Shown here piece by piece: positions 17,793 to 26,973 of a stretch of DNA of 64,000 bases. The notes under the pieces are model-generated. The model was not told where the DNA came from. It saw only the letters and a program-made list of their open reading frames with translations, and ran no database searches. Within the stretch, counting starts at the first letter, position 1. Each line of letters starts with the position of its first letter. Source of the DNA: Polaromonas sp. SP1 (GTDB taxonomy: Bacteria; Pseudomonadota; Gammaproteobacteria; Burkholderiales; Burkholderiaceae_C); the NCBI RefSeq assembly GCF_003711205.1, contig NZ_CP031013.1, positions 1,612,001-1,676,000 of the forward strand. Direction: 5' to 3'. The position numbers and the translations under genes are program-made.

Positions 17793-18245
17793 TCACTGCT
17801 TCGCCCGTTTTTTCAACCACCGCATCAGCCCACCCACCCACGGCAGCTTTTCATACAGCTCCTCGGCCGCATCCCAGTAGTCGCGGTGGTAGTCGACCAG
17901 GCCGGCGGCGGTGAACTTCAGGTGGGAGCCGCCGCGCACGGTTTGCAGGGTGCCCTTGTCAAAGGTCTTGAAGCGGAACTCGAAGTTCCAGGTCAGGAAG
18001 CACTGGTCGCCGTCGACCAGGTTCCCCGTGACTACAAAGCGCGGTTGCTCCAGCGCGTCGTACATGTGGCTAAAGATGGCGCGCAATTCTTCAATGCCGC
18101 GCACTTCGTTGAACGGGTCCTTGAACCAGGCGTTCTGTGTGTAGAAGGCATCGAGCTGGGCCAGGCTTTGCGGGCTCAGCGTTTCGTAGAAGGCGGCGAT
18201 GCGCGCTGCGGCTGCACGGGGGCTGGAAGGTTCGGGCTCGTTCAT
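17793..18245 (-). CDS. NTF2-like (SnoaL-type) protein
   Basis: 150 residues with an alpha+beta cone fold pattern: a helical start (AAARIAAFYETLSPQSLAQLDAFYTQNAWFKDPFNEVRG) followed by strands FVVTGNLVDGDQCFLTWNFEFRF and VRGGSHLKFTAAGLVDYHRDYWD. Members may be small enzymes or ligand-binding subunits. It is 11 bases downstream of the SDR gene and is probably the last gene of the membrane-lipid operon. In several proteobacteria, from memory, such a gene accompanies the SDR, FAD-amine-oxidase, DUF1365 and CFA-like genes. A role in modifying or sensing oxidised lipid is inference. Confidence 0.78.
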   Translation of the reverse strand: MNEPEPSSPRAAAARIAAFYETLSPQSLAQLDAFYTQNAWFKDPFNEVRGIEELRAIFSHMYDALEQPRFVVTGNLVDGDQCFLTWNFEFRFKTFDKGTLQTVRGGSHLKFTAAGLVDYHRDYWDAAEELYEKLPWVGGLMRWLKKRAKQ

Positions 18246-18256
18246 AAGGCCAGAGC

Positions 18257-19027
18257 TTACAGCCCGGTGAACTTGCGCACGGCCGCAAAATAGGCCGGGT
18301 AAGGCAGCAGGCGCAGCGCTTTCATCCAGAGGGTGAAGCGTTTGGGGAAGTGGATGTCAAAGCGCCCCGCTTCCCAGCCCTGCAAGATGGCCGCGGCCGC
18401 CTGCGCCGGCGTGATCAGCGCGGGCATGGTGAAGTGGTTGCCGGCGGTCAGCGGCGTTTCCACAAAGCCAGGGCAGATCAGGCTCACGCCGATATGGCTG
18501 TCTTTCAAATCCATGTAGAGCGTCTCGGCCAGGTTGTTCAACGCCGCCTTGGTCGGCCCGTAGGCCAGGCTCTGGGGCAGGCCACCGTAGCCTGCCACGC
18601 TGCTGATCAGGCTGATGTGGCCGGCCTTGCGCACCAGGAGGTTGGGCAGCAGGGCGTCCAGCACATGCAGCGCGCCGCGGTAGTTGATGTCGTCGTGCCG
18701 CAGCATTTCGGCCAGCTTGTAGTCCGTGGCGCGCTGCGCCTGGTAGTAGCCGGCGCAATACAGCACCAGGTCCAGCGGGCCGGCGGTGAGTACGAGCTGC
18801 GCGGCAGCCCTCACCGCCGCGGGGTCGGTCACATCCAGCGGCAGGCTGGTAGCGCCGGGGTGCGCCGCGGTGAAGGCGTCCAGCGCCGCCGCATTGCGCG
18901 CCGATACAAACACGCGCGCGCCCTGGGCATGCAGGGCCTCGGCTGTGGCCAGGCCGATGCCGCTGGACGCGCCGACCAGCCAGACGGTTTTACCGCGCCA
19001 TTGGGCGATGGGGGGATTCAGGGACAT
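18257..19027 (-). CDS. Short-chain dehydrogenase/reductase
   Basis: 256 residues, a classical SDR. The cofactor loop reads VGASSGIG near residues 18-25. SLISSVAGYGG supplies the catalytic Ser region, and YGPTKAAL the Y-x3-K pair. The C-terminal basic segment (FPKRFTLWMKALRLLPYPAYFAAVRKFTG) is hydrophobic-basic and may lie at the membrane. The substrate is unknown; a lipid-derived carbonyl or alcohol is plausible from its operon. A compound repeat (copy B) lies between this gene and the upstream DUF3833 gene. Confidence 0.88.
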   Translation of the reverse strand: MSLNPPIAQWRGKTVWLVGASSGIGLATAEALHAQGARVFVSARNAAALDAFTAAHPGATSLPLDVTDPAAVRAAAQLVLTAGPLDLVLYCAGYYQAQRATDYKLAEMLRHDDINYRGALHVLDALLPNLLVRKAGHISLISSVAGYGGLPQSLAYGPTKAALNNLAETLYMDLKDSHIGVSLICPGFVETPLTAGNHFTMPALITPAQAAAAILQGWEAGRFDIHFPKRFTLWMKALRLLPYPAYFAAVRKFTGL

Positions 19028-19060
19028 GGTGTGGCTATCTGTTGGTGTGTGCGGATCTTT

Positions 19061-19125
19061 GCTATCAATTCAGGAGCTATAAGTCAAGGTGGCGATTGGG
19101 CTGGAGGCCGATTTCATGCATAAAC
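19061..19125 (+). repeat. Compound repeat, copy B, inside the lipid operon
   Basis: GCTATCAATTCAGGAGCTAT (19061-19080), a 14-nt linker, then ATTGGGCTGGAGGCC (19095-19109) and a short AT-rich tail. It has the same architecture as copy A. It occupies the 113-base gap between the DUF3833 and SDR genes, where the other genes of the unit overlap or nearly touch. Confidence 0.6.
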
Positions 19126-19140
19126 CTCCGGGCGCCTGTT

Positions 19141-19698
19141 TCAGCGTTTGACGAACGAGAGCGTCACTTCGCCCAGCCCGAAACCGAACTTGCTCATCTT
19201 TGCCTTGTTCAGCATGACCTTGTCGTTCATCAAATACATCCAGTCATCGAACTGCACTTCGATCACTTTTCCGTCAACCGGCAGCTTCAACGTGTAACCC
19301 CAGCGGAACGTGTTGCCCTTTTCCTGGCCAACCGCCTCACCCGCCACGTCGGCCGCCGTGCCGATGTAGCGGCCGCCTTCGCCGCGCTTGAGCGTCCAGA
19401 CGCGGCGGTCTTTGGTGCCGTCTGAATAGGTGAAGGCTTCGTCGAGCACGCCGGTCTCTGCGCCCGGCGGGCCCTGCCAGCTGCAGGTCATCACCACCGT
19501 GAAGCGCTTGACGACCTTGCCCGAGCGGTCGGTGAACACGCCGTAGGCATCGACCGTGCCGTTGAAGTATTGGCGCAGGTCCAGCACCGGCTGCTCGGCG
19601 GCGTAGTCGTTGATTTGCGGGCTGCTGCAGGCTGCCAACGTGATGCACAGCAGCAAGGTGGAGGCCATGGCGGCCAGGCGATGCGAAAAGCGTTTCAT
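19141..19698 (-). CDS. DUF3833 family lipoprotein
   Basis: 185 residues. A lipoprotein signal peptide with lipobox LAAC (LLLCITLAACSS) is followed by a beta-rich domain with FNGTVDAYGVFTDRSGKVVKRFTVVM, the DUF3833 signature, and WTLKRGEGGRYIGTAADVAGEA. It is expected to be anchored in the outer or inner membrane facing the periplasm; the lipocalin-like strand pattern suggests lipid contact. The start overlaps the MFS stop by four bases (ATGA). The biochemical role is unknown. Genes of this family, from memory, accompany CFA-like and FAD-amine-oxidase genes in other proteobacteria. Confidence 0.82.
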   Translation of the reverse strand: MKRFSHRLAAMASTLLLCITLAACSSPQINDYAAEQPVLDLRQYFNGTVDAYGVFTDRSGKVVKRFTVVMTCSWQGPPGAETGVLDEAFTYSDGTKDRRVWTLKRGEGGRYIGTAADVAGEAVGQEKGNTFRWGYTLKLPVDGKVIEVQFDDWMYLMNDKVMLNKAKMSKFGFGLGEVTLSFVKR

Positions 19699-20990
19699 GG
19701 CGTGACTCTTTCAGGAAGGGGTGACGTAGGCGAAGGAAGAATGAAAAAGTAGAGGCCCGCCGCGGCCGCGAGCTTGAGCACGCAGGGCAGCACGCAGTAA
19801 GCGATCACCAGCGCATCGAGCGCGGCCGCGTCGCGCACGCCGGGCGCATAGCCGAACACGCCCAGCAGCGGCAAGGCCAGCCCGGCGGCCAGCGCCAGGT
19901 TGAGTTTGGTCGCGAAATTCCACCAGCCGAAGTACGCGCCTTCAGACTGGCCCGATTGCCCGTTGGCTTGCACCACACCGGCCAGCAGCGCACCCGGCAG
20001 GGCCAGGTCGGTGCCCAGCGCCACGCCCGAAAGCGCGCACACCACGGTGAACGCGGCCACCTGGCCCGCGCCCAGCTGCGTGGCCCAGCCAAACACCGCG
20101 ATCGCCAGCAGCATGCCGGCCAGCCAGGTGCGCGCCAGGCCCAGGCGTTTGACGATGGCCAGCCACAGCGGCATCGACAGCGCGGCGGCGAGGAAATAGC
20201 TGCCCAGAAAAAGCGGCTCCATCTGCCGCGGCGCCTGCAGCCGGTCCTGGATGAAAAACAGCACCAGCGTGGCGGGCACGGCGCTGGCAATGCCGTTGAG
20301 CATGAACACCGCCAGCAGGCGGCGAAACGCGGCCGACTTGAACGGCAGCCAGATCGCCGCAGGGCTCGCGGCTTGTGCATGCGCGCGCGCCACCGGCCGC
20401 ACCGCGCGCGACCACGCCAGCCAGCCGGCCGCCAGGGCGACAAAAAACACGCCAGTGGTCACCGGCAAGCCCAGCGCCACGGGCGTGACGGAAGCCAGCA
20501 CCACACCGGCCAGGCCCAGGCCTTCACGCCAGGCGACGATGCGGCTGCGCTCGGCCTCGTTGCCGCCCAGCATGGCGCCCCAGGACTGGTGCGAGATGCT
20601 CAGCGTACTGTAGGCCGCGTAGGTCAGCACCAGCATCACTGCCGCCCAGGCCGCCAGCGCCGCCGGCCCCGTCACCAAGGGGAAAAACAGCAAGGCAAAG
20701 CCCAGCGCCAGCAGTAAGGCGGCAACCGCGCCCAGCATCAACACCGCGCGGGCCGAGCGTGCAAACAGCCGGTCGCTCAGGCGGCCCAGCAGCGGGTCGA
20801 TGAAGGCATCGAACAATCGCGCGCCCAGCAGGATCGCGCCCAGCGTGGCCAGCGGCACGCCGAATTCGCGGGCGTAGTGGTTGGGCAGGATGACGTACAG
20901 CGGCAGCGCCACAAAGGCCAGCGGCAGGCCCAGCAGGCCATAGGCCAGGCCGTTGCGCGCGCCGAAGGCGTCTACGGCCGCCGGTGTCAT
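19695..20990 (-). CDS. MFS transporter (MFS_2/GPH-like)
   Basis: 431 residues with about twelve hydrophobic segments. The loop RLFDAFIDPLLGRLSDRL between helices 2 and 3 is the signature of the melibiose/GPH-type MFS_2 group, which includes lysophospholipid transporters. ATG 20990 overlaps the preceding stop by four bases, which supports this start over upstream possibilities. The last helix ends next to the DUF3833 start, again with a four-base overlap. Given its operon it may move a lipid or lipid-derived compound across the inner membrane, but the substrate cannot be read from the sequence. Confidence 0.87.
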   Translation of the reverse strand: MTPAAVDAFGARNGLAYGLLGLPLAFVALPLYVILPNHYAREFGVPLATLGAILLGARLFDAFIDPLLGRLSDRLFARSARAVLMLGAVAALLLALGFALLFFPLVTGPAALAAWAAVMLVLTYAAYSTLSISHQSWGAMLGGNEAERSRIVAWREGLGLAGVVLASVTPVALGLPVTTGVFFVALAAGWLAWSRAVRPVARAHAQAASPAAIWLPFKSAAFRRLLAVFMLNGIASAVPATLVLFFIQDRLQAPRQMEPLFLGSYFLAAALSMPLWLAIVKRLGLARTWLAGMLLAIAVFGWATQLGAGQVAAFTVVCALSGVALGTDLALPGALLAGVVQANGQSGQSEGAYFGWWNFATKLNLALAAGLALPLLGVFGYAPGVRDAAALDALVIAYCVLPCVLKLAAAAGLYFFILPSPTSPLPERVTP

Positions 20991-21679
20991 CCGCCGCCTC
21001 CGGTGAGCAGGGTCTCGCGCAGTTTCGGTTCGGAGGTTTTGGGTGACAGCCAGATGCCGAAAAAGAGCTTGGCGAATTCCGCATCGCGGATTTCGCCGTT
21101 GGCTTTGCCGTTGACCCAGAAAGCCGCGCCCACGCCGGGGCGGTGCACCCCCATGATGCGGTCGCCTTTTTTGACATCGGGAATCACGCGCAGCATCTCG
21201 GCCTTCCACTGGGCCGCCTGGGCATCGCCGATGGCCACGCTGCGGCGCATTTCCTGCAGCGAGCGGTCGGCCACGTCGACGGCGTCAAAGGCGCGCAGGT
21301 AGGCCAGTTCCAGCGCCAGCGGCTGGCTGGCATAGCTGGCGGCGCCAAAACCGGCAGGCGCCCAGAGGCGCGCGTCGTAGACCTGAAAGCCCCACACCGT
21401 GAGGCGGCCCTTGCCGATCAGGCGGCCTTGCGGCAGCGCTTCTTTCAGCTCGGGGCGGATGTCGGAAGGATCCGCATCCGTGGCGATAGCGCCGGGCGTG
21501 TTGGCGCCCGGCGCAGGCGATTGCGCCAGCGCCGCACCCGCGCAAAACGCCAGCAGCAGGCCGGTTGTCGCGGCTGTGGCGATCGCCGCGCGTGTCAGCG
21601 CTTGCGCAGCGTGAACTGCACCACGCTGGTGTTGGCCTCTGCGAAGGCGGCCTCGCAGTAGCTCAGGTAGAACTCCCAT
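20987..21679 (-). CDS. Chalcone-isomerase-like protein, exported
   Basis: The mature part has the Chalcone_3/chalcone-isomerase-like pattern: LIGKGRLTVWGFQVYDARLWAP followed by LELAYLRAFDAVDVADRSLQEM and GDRIMGVHRPGVGAAFWVNGK. Such proteins bind fatty-acid-like ligands; isomerase activity is not implied. From ATG 21679 the product is 230 residues with an 85-base overlap with the CFA-like gene. The signal-peptide-like segment TRAAIATAATTGLLLAFCAG would then be internal. A CTG at 21598, in a CTGA overlap with the CFA stop, would give a 203-residue protein with a normal signal peptide. The downstream overlap with MFS is ATGA. Confidence 0.78.
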   Translation of the reverse strand: MGVLPELLRGRLRRGQHQRGAVHAAQALTRAAIATAATTGLLLAFCAGAALAQSPAPGANTPGAIATDADPSDIRPELKEALPQGRLIGKGRLTVWGFQVYDARLWAPAGFGAASYASQPLALELAYLRAFDAVDVADRSLQEMRRSVAIGDAQAAQWKAEMLRVIPDVKKGDRIMGVHRPGVGAAFWVNGKANGEIRDAEFAKLFFGIWLSPKTSEPKLRETLLTGGGG

Positions 21680-22833
21680 ATGCGGATAAACCTTTTGTCA
21701 AAACCGAGTTGCAGCACGCGCGATTCCTGCGCCATGAAGTCCTCGCGCCAGAGCCTGAGCGTGCGCGCGTAGTCCTGGCCGAAAGCAAATTCATCGACCA
21801 CGTCAAAGCCTGCGGCGTCGGCCTGCGCGCGGAACTCACGCGGGCAAGGCAGGCAGCCGCCCGGAAAGATGTACTGCTGGATGAAATCGGTCGAAGTGAT
21901 GTAGCGCTCCCACAGTTCGTCGGCCATCACGATGCTCTGGATGCAGGCGTGGCCGCCGGGTTTGAGCAGGCGGTGAACAGTTTGAAAATATTCCGGCCAG
22001 TATTCGCGGCCCACGGCCTCCACCATCTCGATGGAGCAGACGGCGTCGAAGGGCGCGTCCGGCGTGGTCTTGCCGATGTCGCGGTAGTCCTGCAAGCGCA
22101 GGTCGGCAAGGGGCGCTGTGCCCAGGCGTGCCATGCGCTGCCTGGCCCAGTCCAGTTGCTCGGTGCTCAGTGTCACGCCGACGAGCGAGGCGCCGAACTC
22201 GGCCGTAGCCATCTCGGCCAGCGCGCCCCAGCCGCAGCCGATCTCGAGCACACGGTCGCCGGGCTTGACTTGCGCCATGTTGAGCGCCCGGCGCACCTTG
22301 GCGTGCTGGGCTTCTTCCATCGTGGTGTCGGGCGTGGCAAAAATGGCCGACGAGTAGTTCATCGTGCCGTCCAGCCACAGTTCGTAAAAGGCGTTGCCCA
22401 GGTCGTAGTGGGCGTGGATGTTCTTCTGGCTGTTGGCCTTGGTGTTGCGGTTGAGCAGGTGCTTGATGCGGTAGGCCAGGCGGCCCAGCCAGCTGCCGTA
22501 AATCGCGTCTTCCACCTCCTTGCGGTTGAGGATGAAGACCTGCAGCAGTTCGGTCAGGTGCGGCGTGGTCCAGTCGCCGGCGATATAACTTTCGGCAAAG
22601 CCGATGTCGCCCGAGCGCAGCGCTGCGCTGCAGGGATTCCAGTTGTGCAAATGCAGGCTGGCCGTGGGCGCGCCGCCCGAGCCGAAGCGCTGCAGCGAGC
22701 CGTCGGGCAGGCGCACCGTGAGCGTGCCGTGTTTCAGGCGCAGCAGCATCTTCAGGGCGGTGCGGGCGGCGCTGGGCGCGTCGCCGGGCAGGGAAAATGT
22801 TTGTGCGGCAGGGGAGGTGTTGAGTGTGTTCAT
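21595..22833 (-). CDS. Cyclopropane-fatty-acyl-phospholipid synthase-like methyltransferase
   Basis: 412 residues. The SAM motif RVLEIGCGWGALAEMA is at about residues 194-209. The approach QKNIHAHYDLGNAFYELWLD and MNYSSAIF are signatures of the CFA synthase family, which methylates unsaturated acyl chains of membrane phospholipids. SIEMVEAVGREYWPEYF is the conserved active-site region with the Glu. It may make cyclopropane or, as for relatives in alphaproteobacteria, another methylated or furan fatty acid. Both ends show tight coupling: the start has an ATGA overlap with DUF1365, and the stop overlaps the next gene. Confidence 0.9.
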   Translation of the reverse strand: MNTLNTSPAAQTFSLPGDAPSAARTALKMLLRLKHGTLTVRLPDGSLQRFGSGGAPTASLHLHNWNPCSAALRSGDIGFAESYIAGDWTTPHLTELLQVFILNRKEVEDAIYGSWLGRLAYRIKHLLNRNTKANSQKNIHAHYDLGNAFYELWLDGTMNYSSAIFATPDTTMEEAQHAKVRRALNMAQVKPGDRVLEIGCGWGALAEMATAEFGASLVGVTLSTEQLDWARQRMARLGTAPLADLRLQDYRDIGKTTPDAPFDAVCSIEMVEAVGREYWPEYFQTVHRLLKPGGHACIQSIVMADELWERYITSTDFIQQYIFPGGCLPCPREFRAQADAAGFDVVDEFAFGQDYARTLRLWREDFMAQESRVLQLGFDKRFIRIWEFYLSYCEAAFAEANTSVVQFTLRKR

Positions 22834-23597
22834 CGCGTCACAAAGATTTCAGGGGGTTTGGGTTTGCGGACAAAGGGCACGCGCTTGAGCCACAGCTTAA
22901 AGGCCTGCCAGTGGATGCGGGCGATCACGGCCAGCGTCATCGCGGGATGGCCCCATACGGCCTTGCGCAGGCTGGCGGCGGTGATGGGCTCGAGCGTGCC
23001 GCTCACGCTGGTCTCCAGCAGTGGGCCGGCCTCGTCGTCGTAGTCGATGCGGGCGACGGTTTTTTTCAGCCCGTCGTTGTCGATGTGCAGGAAGCGAAAG
23101 CGGTAGCCGCCCTCCAGCGTGCAAAACGGCGAGACGTGGAACACCTTGTCGGCCTTGAGCTCCTGGCCGTACTGCGGCGCGTCGAGCAGGTAGCAGTGGC
23201 GCTCGCCAAAAGTGTTGTTGACCTCCACCACGATGGCGCGCAGGGCGCCGTCGGTGCGGTGGCAGTACCAGAAACTCACCGGCTTGAAGGTGTAGCCCAG
23301 CACGCGCGGGTAGGCGTGCAGCCAGACCTCGCCGGCCGCGTCTTCCACGCCTTCGCGCAGCAGCATGGCGTCCAGCCAGGCCAGGGCGTCGTTTCCGCCG
23401 TCGCCGTGGTCCTTGTCAAAAAAGCTGATGGCCGCCGGGCGGTTGCGCGCCAGCATGCCGCTTCCGTGCTGCTTGAGGCTGCGCATCGGCAGCATCAGAA
23501 AGCAGGTCGGGTATTCGAATGCGTTGCGGGCCGGGCGCAGGCGTGTGTGGCGGACCTGGCCGAAGCCGATCAGGGGCTGAGGCGCGCCGGTGTTCAT
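22830..23597 (-). CDS. DUF1365 domain protein
   Basis: 255 residues. The N-terminal GQVRHTRLRPARNAFEYPTCFL is typical of DUF1365, as are the later FKPVSFWYCHRTDG and KVFHVSPFCTLEGGYRFRF. The function is unknown. The gene is nearly always found next to an FAD amine oxidase and a CFA-like methyltransferase, so it is thought to act on the same lipid. No clear signal peptide. It overlaps both neighbours by four bases (ATGA), so the three proteins are likely made in similar amounts. Confidence 0.88.
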   Translation of the reverse strand: MNTGAPQPLIGFGQVRHTRLRPARNAFEYPTCFLMLPMRSLKQHGSGMLARNRPAAISFFDKDHGDGGNDALAWLDAMLLREGVEDAAGEVWLHAYPRVLGYTFKPVSFWYCHRTDGALRAIVVEVNNTFGERHCYLLDAPQYGQELKADKVFHVSPFCTLEGGYRFRFLHIDNDGLKKTVARIDYDDEAGPLLETSVSGTLEPITAASLRKAVWGHPAMTLAVIARIHWQAFKLWLKRVPFVRKPKPPEIFVTR

Positions 23598-24904
23598 GCG
23601 GTAACCCCCGCGCCCTGCAGCAGCAGGCTGGCGGCGTGCAGGCCCGACTTCAGGCCGTCCTCGTGAAAGCCGTAGCCCGTCCAGGCGCCGCAGAAATAGG
23701 TGTGAAACTGGCCTTGCAGGGCAGGCACGTCCCGCTGCGCGCGTATCGCCGCCAGGTCGAACACCGGATGTGCATAGTCAAATTCACCCATGATGTGGGT
23801 ACGGGCGATGTCCCGCACCGGATTCAGCGACACCAGCACAGGCTGTGAAAAAGGCAGGGGCTGCAGCATGTTCAGCAGGTAGTGCAGGCAGACCCGCGTG
23901 GATTCGTGGCCGGCGTCTTGAGCCCGTTCGTAGTTCCAGGCCGCCCAGGCCAGCTTTTGGCTGGGCAGCACCGAGGCATCGGTGTGCAGCACGGCGCGGT
24001 TGGCCTGGTAGCGGATGGCGCCCAGCACCTGGCTTTCGGTGCTGCTCGGCTCGCCCAGCAGGGCCAGCGATTCGTCGGAATGCGTGGCCAGCACCACCTT
24101 GTCAAAGCGCTCGGCGCCGCTGTCGGTGACCACGTTCACGCCGGCCGCGTCGCGCTCGATACGGCGCACCGGCGTGTTCAGCCGCTTGTCTTCAATCCGG
24201 GCGATGATTTTCTCGACGTAATGACGGGCGCCGCCCTGCACCGTCCACCACTGCGGCCGGTCGGTGATCTGGAGCAGGCCGTGGTTGTGGCAAAACCGGA
24301 TCATGGTGGCCACCGGGAAGCGCAGCATCTGGTCGGTCGGGCAGGACCAGATGCAGCCCATCATGGGCAGGAAGTACCAGTCGCGGAATTCGGCCGAGAA
24401 TTTTTGCGCCTGCAGGAAATCGCCCAGCGGCTGCGCCATGGCGGCTTCGGCGCCTGATTCGGCCAGCCGGGTGGTGATGCGGTTGAAGCGCACGATGTCG
24501 GCCAGCATGCGCAGGAATTTCCAGCTGGCCAGGTTGCCACGCTGGGCAAACACGCTGCTCAGGCTGGAGCCGCTCCATTCCAGGCCTGTGCCGCCTCGGC
24601 CGGCACCCGGCACCTTGACGGAAAACGACATGTCGGAGCGGGCGGTTGCCACACCGAGCTCGGCAAAAAGCTTGATCAGGCGCGGATAGGTGCGTTCGTT
24701 GAACACCAGAAAGCCGGTGTCCACGCCGTGCGTGACCGGCCCGTTGGCAGTGGGCAGGGTGATGTCGACTGTGTGGGTATGGCCGCCGAAATAGCTGCCC
24801 GCTTCAAACACGGTGACGTTGGCCAGGCCGTGAAGGCTGTGGGCCGCGGCAAGCCCGGAGATGCCGGAGCCGATGACCGCTACACGCAAGGGCGCGCCGC
24901 TCAT
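23594..24904 (-). CDS. FAD-dependent amine-oxidase-like protein
   Basis: 436 residues. The FAD-binding VAVIGSGISGLAAAHSL is at the N-terminus (about residues 8-24). HGVDTGFLVFNERTYPRL and a C-terminal WTGYGFHEDGLKSG motif place it in the NAD(P)-binding/amino-oxidase group linked to DUF1365 and CFA synthases. It probably oxidises or desaturates an acyl chain or its methylated intermediate. It is the first gene of the operon. Its leader contains a C/T-rich tract on the coding strand (24961-24985). No sigma factor or anti-sigma gene is adjacent, unlike in bacteria where this set belongs to a singlet-oxygen regulon. Confidence 0.87.
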   Translation of the reverse strand: MSGAPLRVAVIGSGISGLAAAHSLHGLANVTVFEAGSYFGGHTHTVDITLPTANGPVTHGVDTGFLVFNERTYPRLIKLFAELGVATARSDMSFSVKVPGAGRGGTGLEWSGSSLSSVFAQRGNLASWKFLRMLADIVRFNRITTRLAESGAEAAMAQPLGDFLQAQKFSAEFRDWYFLPMMGCIWSCPTDQMLRFPVATMIRFCHNHGLLQITDRPQWWTVQGGARHYVEKIIARIEDKRLNTPVRRIERDAAGVNVVTDSGAERFDKVVLATHSDESLALLGEPSSTESQVLGAIRYQANRAVLHTDASVLPSQKLAWAAWNYERAQDAGHESTRVCLHYLLNMLQPLPFSQPVLVSLNPVRDIARTHIMGEFDYAHPVFDLAAIRAQRDVPALQGQFHTYFCGAWTGYGFHEDGLKSGLHAASLLLQGAGVTA

Positions 24905-24960
24905 GCGCGGGGCCCTGCCGGCTGGAATATAAAAATGCTGCGAAGCGCCCCGGCGCGAAC

Positions 24961-24985
24961 GAGGGAGGGAGGGAGGAGGAGGAGC
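24961..24985 (+). repeat. Purine-only G-rich tract in the leader of the lipid operon
   Basis: Three GGGA units then three GGA units in a row on the + strand, 57-81 bases before the FAD gene start. It may fold as a weak G-quadruplex on the template strand. No known regulator is implied. Confidence 0.4.
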
Positions 24986-25163
24986 GCCCCGGGATTGCAG
25001 CTGAACCGGATCGGCTCAGAAGGCTTCGCAACAATGAAACTGTTTTTTTGCCAGCGCTGCCCCTGAGGGCATATCGCGCTTGCAAAGGTATGAGAGCACA
25101 ACTGCAGGGTAGTTCCCTGAAATAAAAGGCCCCCCAGGTAAATTTTTGTTAACGGCCCTTGGG

Positions 25164-25766
25164 CTAACGGGGCGGCGTCGCGGCCAGCTGTTTTTGGATC
25201 TCCTTGAGCAACGCCCCGCTGGCCGGGTCGGCCATGGAGTTGAAGCTGGTGACGCTGGTGCCGTCCCGCGCGATGACGTACTTGTAGAAGTTCCAGCGCG
25301 GCGTGGTGCCCGTTTTGGCTGCCAGTTGCTTGAAGAGCGGATTGGCATCCTTGCCCGTCACGCTGGTTTTGGTGAACATCGGGAATTTCACGCCGAAAGT
25401 GTTCTCGCAGAAATCGGCAATTTCCTTGTTGCTGCCGGTTTCCTGCGAAAAGTCGTTGGAGGGGAAGCCCAGCACCACCAGGCCCTGGTCCTTGTATTTG
25501 GCATGCAGCGCTTCCAGCCCTTTGTACTGGCCGGTGAATCCGCAGAAGCTGGCGGTGTTGACCACGACCACCACCTTGCCGCTGTACTGGCAGAGCGACT
25601 GGGGTTTTTCGTCCTGCAGGCGCAGGAAGTCCTGCTGCAACAGGCTGGGGCAGGCTGCGGGCGCCGGTGTGGCGGGGTTGGCCGCCAGCGCGCCCGGGTG
25701 GGCTGCCAGCAGCGCGGCGCAGCACAGCGTGCTCAGCAGGAGGGTTTTGGGCGTGCAGACAGGCAT
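25164..25766 (-). CDS. Glutathione peroxidase family protein, exported
   Basis: 200 residues with a signal peptide (LLLSTLCCAALLAAHPGALA). The GPx fold shows NTASFCGFTGQY, with the peroxidatic Cys near residue 75, then GFPSNDFSQETGSN carrying the Gln region, and RWNFYKYVI with the conserved Trp-Asn. It reduces H2O2 or lipid hydroperoxides, probably with thioredoxin rather than glutathione because it lacks selenocysteine. A periplasmic location is predicted. It lies 259 bases upstream of the membrane-lipid operon on the same strand, consistent with a shared theme of lipid oxidation. Its promoter is in the 25767-26103 gap. Confidence 0.9.
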   Translation of the reverse strand: MPVCTPKTLLLSTLCCAALLAAHPGALAANPATPAPAACPSLLQQDFLRLQDEKPQSLCQYSGKVVVVVNTASFCGFTGQYKGLEALHAKYKDQGLVVLGFPSNDFSQETGSNKEIADFCENTFGVKFPMFTKTSVTGKDANPLFKQLAAKTGTTPRWNFYKYVIARDGTSVTSFNSMADPASGALLKEIQKQLAATPPR

Positions 25767-26103
25767 GGGCGAACTCGCGGACAGTTAGGTGAAAGGCGTA
25801 TTTCATTTTGTCGTTCTTGTTGCCCCGGCACAAGCCGGTCGGCGCGGGTCATGCCCGCCCAGTGAATACGCAGCGTGCCGCCGGCTGGATTCAGCCCCGC
25901 CTTGACAGTGGACAGGGCCCAAAACGAAGCCTCGGGTAGGTGAACATGCCGGAATGAGGGTCGAAATATCCTGATTTGCCGGTAAATTGCCGTCAAGTCG
26001 CAAGTTGTCACATTCCCCGCCTAAAATCGCGCTAGTACCCAGGATGCACCGGGAGGGCATCCAAGGCAGATTTATCTGCGTATTCGATTGCGAAGGAGTT
26101 CAT
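25767..26103. other. Intergenic region between divergent GPx and desaturase-like genes
   Basis: 337 bases without a supported gene. It must hold the promoters of both divergent genes. The desaturase-like gene has a GGAG just before its ATG. No clear inverted repeat, terminator or sigma-E type promoter pair was found by eye. Confidence 0.5.
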
Positions 26104-26973
26104 ATGCTTTACCCCGAACTGTTCAAACAACTTGAATCCGTCCGCTGGGACATGGACAAGGATATCCCATGGGCCAGTTTTGACCCGGCCAAGCTGACCG
26201 ACGAGCAGGCCCAGACCATCAAGATGAACGCCATTACCGAGTGGTCCGCCCTGCCGGCTACCGAAATGTTCCTGCGCGACAACAAGGACGACAGCGATTT
26301 CTCGGCCTTCATGTCGATCTGGTTCTTCGAAGAGCAAAAACATTCGCTGGTGCTGATGGAGTACCTCAAGCGCTTCCGCCCCGACCTGGCCCCTACTGAA
26401 AAAGAGCTGCACGAAGTGCGCTTTGAGTTTGAGCCGGCGCCCGCGCTGGAAACCCTGATGCTGCATTTTTGCGGCGAGATCCGCCTGAACCACTGGTACC
26501 GCCGCGCCAGCGAATGGCACACCGAGCCCGTCATCAAGCAGATCTACACCCAACTGAGCCAGGATGAAGCGCGCCATGGCGGCGCCTACCTGCGCTACAT
26601 GAAGCGGGCTATCAACAATTTCGGCAATGAAGCCAAATCCGCCTTCACCAAGGTCGGCGTGCTGATGGCCAGCGCGCGCCGCACGGCGCAGGCGCTGCAC
26701 CCGACCAACCTTCACGTGAACAAAAGCCTGTTCCCGCGCGACACCATCCAGAGCCGCCTGCCCAACCCCGAGTGGCTGGAGCATTGGCTGGACACGCAGA
26801 TCAAATTTGACGCTGTGTGGGAAGGCAAAGTGGTTGATCGCATCCTGCACAACTTGAGCCTGCTGATGAACCAGAGCTTCAAGACTGTGCAGGAGCTGAA
26901 CCGCTACCGCAAGGAAGTCGGCAAAGAGCTGGCCGAGTCCATCGCCGCCAAACCGGCGCCCACAGGGGCTTGA
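26104..26973 (+). CDS. Acyl-ACP desaturase/ferritin-like di-iron protein
   Basis: 289 residues. The carboxylate-bridged di-iron ligands are visible in two helical pairs: WFFEEQKH (residues 73-80) and DEARHGGAY further on, with additional Glu in CGEIRLNHW. This matches the type 2 (soluble) fatty acid desaturase and ferritin-like superfamily. It may introduce a double bond or otherwise oxidise an acyl chain. ATG 26104 is preceded by GGAG. It is divergent from the GPx gene near the CFA-like operon and is followed by ridA with a one-base overlap. Direct evidence for the substrate is lacking. Confidence 0.8.
   Translation: MLYPELFKQLESVRWDMDKDIPWASFDPAKLTDEQAQTIKMNAITEWSALPATEMFLRDNKDDSDFSAFMSIWFFEEQKHSLVLMEYLKRFRPDLAPTEKELHEVRFEFEPAPALETLMLHFCGEIRLNHWYRRASEWHTEPVIKQIYTQLSQDEARHGGAYLRYMKRAINNFGNEAKSAFTKVGVLMASARRTAQALHPTNLHVNKSLFPRDTIQSRLPNPEWLEHWLDTQIKFDAVWEGKVVDRILHNLSLLMNQSFKTVQELNRYRKEVGKELAESIAAKPAPTGA

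Follow-up and report, generated by a model that had tools for sequence, protein, structure and literature searches.

What does a membrane-lipid gene island make, and what controls it, when no sigma factor gene stands beside it? Such an island lies in a 64,000-nucleotide (nt) stretch of Polaromonas sp. SP1 DNA (the window; bases 1612001-1676000 of a genome of 4,507,493 bases in one contig), and an earlier reading of this DNA (the original prediction) had taken it for an oxidative-stress locus that may make methylated or furan fatty acids. We read it as two linked units, a furan fatty acid operon and an independent small RNA (sRNA) gene that precedes it, is typical of the host's family and is transcribed from an extracytoplasmic function (ECF)-type promoter, and give this reading a probability of about 0.65. 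The 259-nt gap between the glutathione peroxidase gene gpx and the first operon gene, the ufaD-like flavoprotein gene (ufaD below), holds both the promoter motif and the structured RNA, neither of which figured in the original prediction.

A conserved structured RNA in front of the operon

Alignment of same-genus sequences upstream of ufaD disclosed three conserved blocks: GTTAACAAA..TTTACC, the promoter motif GGGAACT-N16/17-CTCNNAC, and about 111 nt ending a few bases before ufaD. In the last, a long helix (P1) closes the structure around a variable hairpin (P2) and a helix (P3) with a loop of 21-30 nt; a U-run follows. The P3 loop is 96% C+U (median), and an anti-Shine-Dalgarno motif, CCUCCUCCC, stands unpaired within it in 73 of 97 RNA copies. 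RNAalifold, applied to a MAFFT alignment of 19 copies, gave 23 base pairs, 4 of them with double changes; in the 97-copy alignment 96.6% of cells pair and 22 of the 23 pairs carry double changes. Double-changed cells numbered 274 against 41 ± 8 after shuffling (0/500) and at most 45 in slid controls, in an alignment fitted to the model structure, which favours that structure in this test. Copies folded alone retained at least 70% of P1 in the minimum-energy fold in 97/97 cases and most of P3 in 89/97; the median z was -3.9, with z < -2 in 92/97 and -3.3 for the window copy. On the strand opposite the loop (window 24928-25038), stretches of two or three G stand close together and might form a DNA quadruplex.

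A model built from the 19 same-genus copies (R1) was used for genome searches. It located the RNA in 56 of 121 genomes, the window's included; all 56 were among the 73 of the genus, with 0/48 in other families. Across the host's family the RNA was present in 289/397 genomes and 100/126 genera, with one match per listed genome. Among the matches listed, a DNA pattern covering the loop and its 3' side identified as carriers Polaromonas, Ramlibacter, Hydrogenophaga, Curvibacter, Caldimonas and Caenimonas, and further Aquabacterium, Variovorax, Xenophilus, Xylophilus and Methylibium. A draw from the whole order gave R1 matches in 13/399 genomes, 12 of them in the family; the sole outside match (G640, E 0.0024) was rejected, because it has no C/U loop and repetitive sequence precedes it. 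No credible copy was found in more than 400 genomes of other families. For the RNA, Rfam 15 gave 0 matches at the gathering score, both in the window and in 20 other loci, and no such sRNA for this family was found in Rfam or in the open-access literature searched; within these searches, the structured RNA in front of the island is undescribed. In one locus (L183, 4153-4238), about 1.5 kb from the small RNA, a C4 antisense RNA (RF01695) suggests phage-derived DNA.

The RNA, its promoter motif and the genes that follow

The commonest gene order is gpx, RNA, (ufa operon), gst, purB, with the operon optional. The 97 RNA copies are followed by ufaD in 50 cases, by gst in 35 and by no query gene within 2.5 kb in 7; of the remainder, one (L171) precedes an opposite-strand gpx and four precede a partial ufaD match. 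Three of these partial matches (L227, L228, L229) are short fragments; the fourth, in L206, extends up to the end of its contig and was left out of the decayed cases. No intact ufaD thus adjoins the RNA in 46/97 copies, 3 of them beside ufaD fragments. In those three same-genus loci the fragments lie between RNA and gst (L227, 2643-2858; L228, 2620-2843; L229, 2731-2835), with NTF2-like fragments in two: here the operon has decayed and the RNA has been kept. Within the genus, the RNA occurs in 11/13 genomes without a DUF1365 match and in 45/60 with one, and in the same-genus genome G024 RNA and operon are about 2.6 Mb apart. Since the RNA persists without the operon, it counts as a separate gene, probably for a stress sRNA. 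In L171 (2501-2616) the RNA is turned round with respect to gpx and gst, as would result from inversion of a small piece that includes its promoter.

The promoter motif occurs in 19/21 same-genus loci, window included, and upstream of 71/97 family-wide RNA copies, against a mean of 0.8 and a maximum of 4 in 300 mononucleotide shuffles. It accompanies the RNA where ufaD is next (35/50) and elsewhere (36/47). A search of 24880-26120 for sigma-70-type sites gave none. The window site resembles the Shewanella RpoE motifs GAACTT and TCTACA (PMC4336711). Among the genome's proteins are an RpoE (TIGR02939, 254 bits; cut-off 236) and, encoded after it, an RseA_N protein; judged by the sigmaE-type consensus GGAACTT-N16-TCNNA, this RpoE may use the RNA promoter. 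In a scan for an autoregulated source of the motif, none of nine sigma-gene upstream regions, that of rpoE included, held the strict pattern, and the motif was assigned to no sigma gene on this ground. A conserved box, GTTAACAAAAATTTACC, lies some 20 nt ahead of the -35 element; its strict form is present in 17/97 upstream regions.

Could the element instead be a cis-acting leader of the furan operon alone, an attenuator rather than a separate sRNA? The RNA has a terminator-like end 23 nt ahead of ufaD in the window (median 24 nt over the 50 operon copies), and copies with the operon have the shorter U-run: their longest T-run past P1 averages 4.18 (n=50), against 5.11 before gst (n=35; p 1.4e-4), in a comparison that ignores phylogeny. 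Fold energy does not differ significantly between operon and gst copies (p 0.08). Against such a leader, the same fold stands directly before gst, without ufaD, in 35/97 copies, 3 others have it next to ufaD fragments, and in G024 it lies megabases from the operon, so that we hold a purely cis-acting role to be improbable. Far less probable still is a short coding sequence in place of an RNA. The length is divisible by 3 in 76/97 copies and one frame has an internal stop in just 9/97; but the stops in that frame are widely scattered, an upstream ATG is present in just 64/97, identity by codon position is nearly flat (0.86-0.89) and covariation is strong. The 3-nt length steps are expected from CTC/CTT repeats in the loop, and the short open reading frame was rejected. 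An independent sRNA gene remains the preferred reading. As a separate promoter would hardly fit into the 23-nt spacing, transcription probably enters the operon by read-through from the sRNA promoter or from gpx.

A predicted furan fatty acid gene set

The furan fatty acid 9M5-FuFA of Rhodobacter sphaeroides and Rhodopseudomonas palustris arises when cis-vaccenate is methylated by UfaM, the product is desaturated by UfaD, a flavin adenine dinucleotide (FAD)-binding protein, and O2-derived oxygen is inserted by UfaO, a DUF1365 protein (PMC7380195). The R. palustris genes RPA2571 (ufaD), RPA2570 (ufaO) and RPA2569 (ufaM) suffice in an R. sphaeroides triple mutant, and RSP1087-1089, the remaining genes of the R. 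sphaeroides operon, are dispensable for the furan there (PMC7380195); the accessory genes of the window need not, therefore, be biosynthetic. By Pfam and gene order, the window's FAD protein, DUF1365 and cyclopropane fatty acid (CFA) synthase-like genes are of the same families and in the same order as R. palustris ufaD-ufaO-ufaM; R. sphaeroides RSP1091/1090 with ufaM comprise the same three families. The methylated furan fatty acid gene set of the original prediction thus corresponds to RPA2571-2570-2569 (PMC7380195). The island is, as judged from these likenesses, a predicted betaproteobacterial instance of the known ufa locus under different control. It differs from the loci of R. palustris and R. 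sphaeroides in its betaproteobacterial host without a ChrR match, in its conserved accessories, and in having gpx and the small RNA in front.

The same trio was found in this order on one strand in 40/40 loci fetched around DUF1365 relatives, a sample selected for DUF1365 in which 19 loci come from other families of the order. In the host's family a DUF1365 match occurs in 316/397 genomes, distant paralogues included. The fetched stretches of the 19 other-family loci contain the chalcone-isomerase-like gene (11), the MFS transporter (13), DUF3833 (11), the di-iron protein (8) and gpx (4); since they recur in other families, these are old partners. The SDR and NTF2-like genes likewise recur in other families of the order. 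The earlier view of the chalcone-isomerase-like gene and the desaturase as special additions here is not supported. The oxidative-stress link drawn earlier finds support in a periplasmic Gpx that is RpoE2-dependent in Shewanella (PMC4336711).

Pfam agrees with the families earlier assigned to the ten genes, whose places and strands are as given before (Table 1). Of the repeated 4-base overlaps claimed, four ATGA overlaps stand, joining DUF3833/MFS (19695-19698), MFS/chalcone-like (20987-20990), CFA/DUF1365 (22830-22833) and DUF1365/FAD (23594-23597); the CFA/chalcone-like junction does not fit, being either an 85-nt overlap (ATG 21679) or an unusual CTG start at 21598.

Table 1. Features of the locus, in window coordinates
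Feature	Position	Strand	Basis
di-iron protein, acyl-ACP (acyl carrier protein)-desaturase/ferritin-like superfamily, divergent	26104..26973	+	weak Pfam FA_desaturase_2/AurF match
gpx, glutathione peroxidase, probably exported	25164..25766	-	Pfam GSHPx; hydrophobic N-terminus in translation; directly upstream of small RNA
conserved box GTTAACAAAAATTTACC	25137..25153	-	alignment of upstream regions
ECF-type promoter motif GGGAACT-N16-CTCATAC	25088..25117	-	conserved upstream of RNA
structured small RNA, 111 nt: P1, P2, P3, C/U-rich loop, U-run	24928..25038	-	covariation, folding
ufaD-like FAD amine-oxidase-family protein, predicted acyl desaturase of furan pathway	23594..24904	-	Pfam Amino_oxidase 2.7e-17; R. 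palustris ufaD-ufaO-ufaM order
ufaO-like DUF1365 protein, predicted furan-forming oxygenase	22830..23597	-	Pfam DUF1365 2e-79; UfaO is a DUF1365 protein (PMC7380195)
ufaM-like S-adenosylmethionine-dependent fatty-acyl methylase, CFA/CMAS family	21595..22833	-	Pfam CMAS 1.4e-86
Chalcone_3 (chalcone-isomerase-like) protein	20987..21679	-	Pfam; start uncertain, ATG 21679 or CTG 21598
MFS_2 transporter	19695..20990	-	Pfam; ATGA overlap with preceding gene
DUF3833 lipoprotein-like protein	19141..19698	-	Pfam
short-chain dehydrogenase/reductase (SDR) oxidoreductase	18257..19027	-	Pfam adh_short
SnoaL_2/NTF2-like protein	17793..18245	-	Pfam

The divergent di-iron protein is 70-92% identical to 14 homologues, and its ligand set (E46, E77xxH80, E125, E155xxH158) is invariant in 15 aligned sequences. 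A structure model (predicted local distance difference test, pLDDT, 84; predicted template modelling score, pTM, 0.83) is nearest in fold to plant acyl-ACP desaturases (template modelling score, TM, ~0.5; 13-16% identity), and a PDB sequence search returned weak matches only. Before this gene, a block like TGTCACATT..CGCCTAAAATC (window 26006-26028) recurs in many aligned same-genus loci and is a possible promoter.

Regulators, rivals and proposed explanation

The earlier statement that no sigma/anti-sigma pair adjoins the island holds: 0 of the genome's 11 Sigma70_r2 places fall in the window. A search for ChrR, likewise proposed before, gave 0 matches to family TIGR02451 in the whole 4.51-Mb genome, with a positive in one control genome, Caulobacter; the genome's one Cupin_7 protein (248 aa) was rejected as ChrR, matching cupin domains only. 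The TGATCC-N-CGTA motif of ChrR-type sigma factors occurs 0 times in the whole window on either strand. Under singlet oxygen, R. sphaeroides UfaO and UfaD (RSP_1090, RSP_1091) have the further effect of promoting ChrR degradation (PMC8307010), a role that, with no ChrR in this genome, cannot apply in the same form. With the RpoE2-ChrR regulon of Shewanella and the PSPTO_1043 regulon of Pseudomonas syringae the window shares CFA, SDR and FAD protein genes, and with Shewanella the periplasmic Gpx; it differs in the missing ChrR and in a promoter of the GGAACT-N16-CTC type, not TGATCC-N-CGTA.

Two rival accounts concern the operon itself, one its control and the other its product. In gaps beside the operon (25 loci searched) we found a gene whose product combines a MerR helix-turn-helix with two B12-binding domains and has CarH as its best NCBIfam match, at 129 bits, far under the cut-off of 400. 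Such a LitR/CarH-like MerR-B12 gene lies within the fetched stretch in 18/40 relatives' loci, three at 25-28% identity, at times with a photolyase-related DPRP gene or folE2. Class II LitR of Pseudomonas controls the light-inducible phrB, ufaM, folE and cryB (PMC9758184), and a similar cluster lies near MerR-B12 genes in many relatives. The operon may accordingly belong to a LitR/CarH-type photoreceptor light regulon, as in Pseudomonas, whose adjacent regulator the window genome has lost; we rate this at somewhat less than an even chance. Unlike the Pseudomonas regulon, the window genome has no LitR-like match: a search elsewhere in it gave none, its sole B12-binding_2 hit falling in a MetH-sized frame of 985 codons. 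Another regulator, or none, therefore acts now. As to the product, the cluster might make cyclopropane or methyl-branched fatty acids only, without furans. The ufaM-like protein has cyclopropane-fatty-acyl-phospholipid synthases as its best PDB relatives and matches the NCBIfam CFA models below their cut-offs; yet the DUF1365 and FAD proteins, which Rhodobacter and Rhodopseudomonas need to form the furan (PMC7380195), adjoin it in every fetched locus, which makes a furan-free product unlikely.

Beside the MerR-B12 gene and the operon, folE2 was seen in L078 (Pfam-tested) and L066 (by similarity), and the DPRP gene in L067 (Pfam-tested) and L071 (by similarity), pointing to a light regulon in those families. 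In L069, L072 and L076, from three other families, a TetR-family gene directly upstream of the FAD gene replaces LitR (Pfam-confirmed in L072 and L076).

Several points weigh against the reading of a furan operon behind an ECF-driven sRNA gene. Membership of the ufa locus rests on protein family, gene order and PMC7380195, and transcript and lipid product are predicted from sequence. The promoter motif was not found in 26/97 copies (15/50 with the operon). Its strict pattern occurs once in the genome and the backward control three times, with no excess over chance and no visible regulon; because the control outnumbers the pattern, the promoter is supported by conservation and not by genome counts. 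RpoE is assigned by consensus only, among the genome's 11 Sigma70_r2 places, and in the scan upstream of sigma genes L006 (SigJ-like) matches a medium pattern and L007 and L012 a looser one. A promoter inside the RNA, or read-through from gpx, could drive the operon instead. A simple terminator scan gave no flag at the RNA end, because it allows loops of 3-8 nt only.

In the explanation we favour, drawn for its chemistry from characterised homologues, the UfaM-like methylase would place a methyl group on the cis-vaccenyl chain of a phospholipid, the UfaD-like flavoprotein would add a second double bond, and the UfaO-like DUF1365 protein would bring in oxygen and close the furan ring, with the chalcone-like, MFS_2, DUF3833, SDR and NTF2-like proteins as conserved accessories. 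The sRNA would start from the GGAACT-N16-CTC ECF-type promoter, end at the terminator-like helix and U-run, and act in trans through base pairing between its C/U loop and Shine-Dalgarno regions, in the manner of alphaproteobacterial sRNAs with anti-Shine-Dalgarno loops. Transcripts of the operon would start either at that promoter, continuing past the sRNA terminator, or farther upstream with gpx.

CcsR1-4 of Rhodobacter are counted among the cuckoo RNAs, and MicA and RybB are sigmaE-dependent sRNAs of enterobacteria. The window RNA shares with MicA and RybB a possible sigmaE-type promoter before a terminated sRNA, and differs in having no Rfam match to them. The motif CCUCCUCCC is the anti-Shine-Dalgarno motif of alpha-r14 sRNAs, one per hairpin over three hairpins (PMC10746234), and CcsR1-4 are stress-response sRNAs affecting the glutathione pool (PMC8307010). 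Exposure of CCUCCUCCC in a loop is common to the window RNA and the alpha-r14/cuckoo RNAs (NfeR1). In contrast to these, the window RNA is one three-helix fold with one long C/U loop, not several motif hairpins, and was seen in one betaproteobacterial family only, in single copy; because the architecture differs, we do not file it as a member of either group. At most, by analogy, it may work like the alpha-r14 and CcsR RNAs; an anti-Shine-Dalgarno loop can pair with many strong Shine-Dalgarno sequences. Its position between a peroxidase gene and a lipid-protection operon suggests a clue to its stress signal. More tentatively, at odds short of even, it could be a family-wide, Comamonadaceae-type stress sRNA, ECF-driven and with an anti-Shine-Dalgarno C/U loop, that is the functional counterpart of CcsR/cuckoo RNAs and whose leaky terminator, in genomes with the furan operon, also meters expression of that operon.

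If this more tentative reading is true, an sRNA and a membrane-protecting lipid pathway would be coupled in one transcript. From the ufa gene set, furan fatty acids are to be expected throughout a large bacterial family, and their control seems to lie with something other than ChrR. The more important result is the single-copy structured RNA present in most searched genomes of that family; as it outlasts the operon, selection seems to act on the RNA as such.

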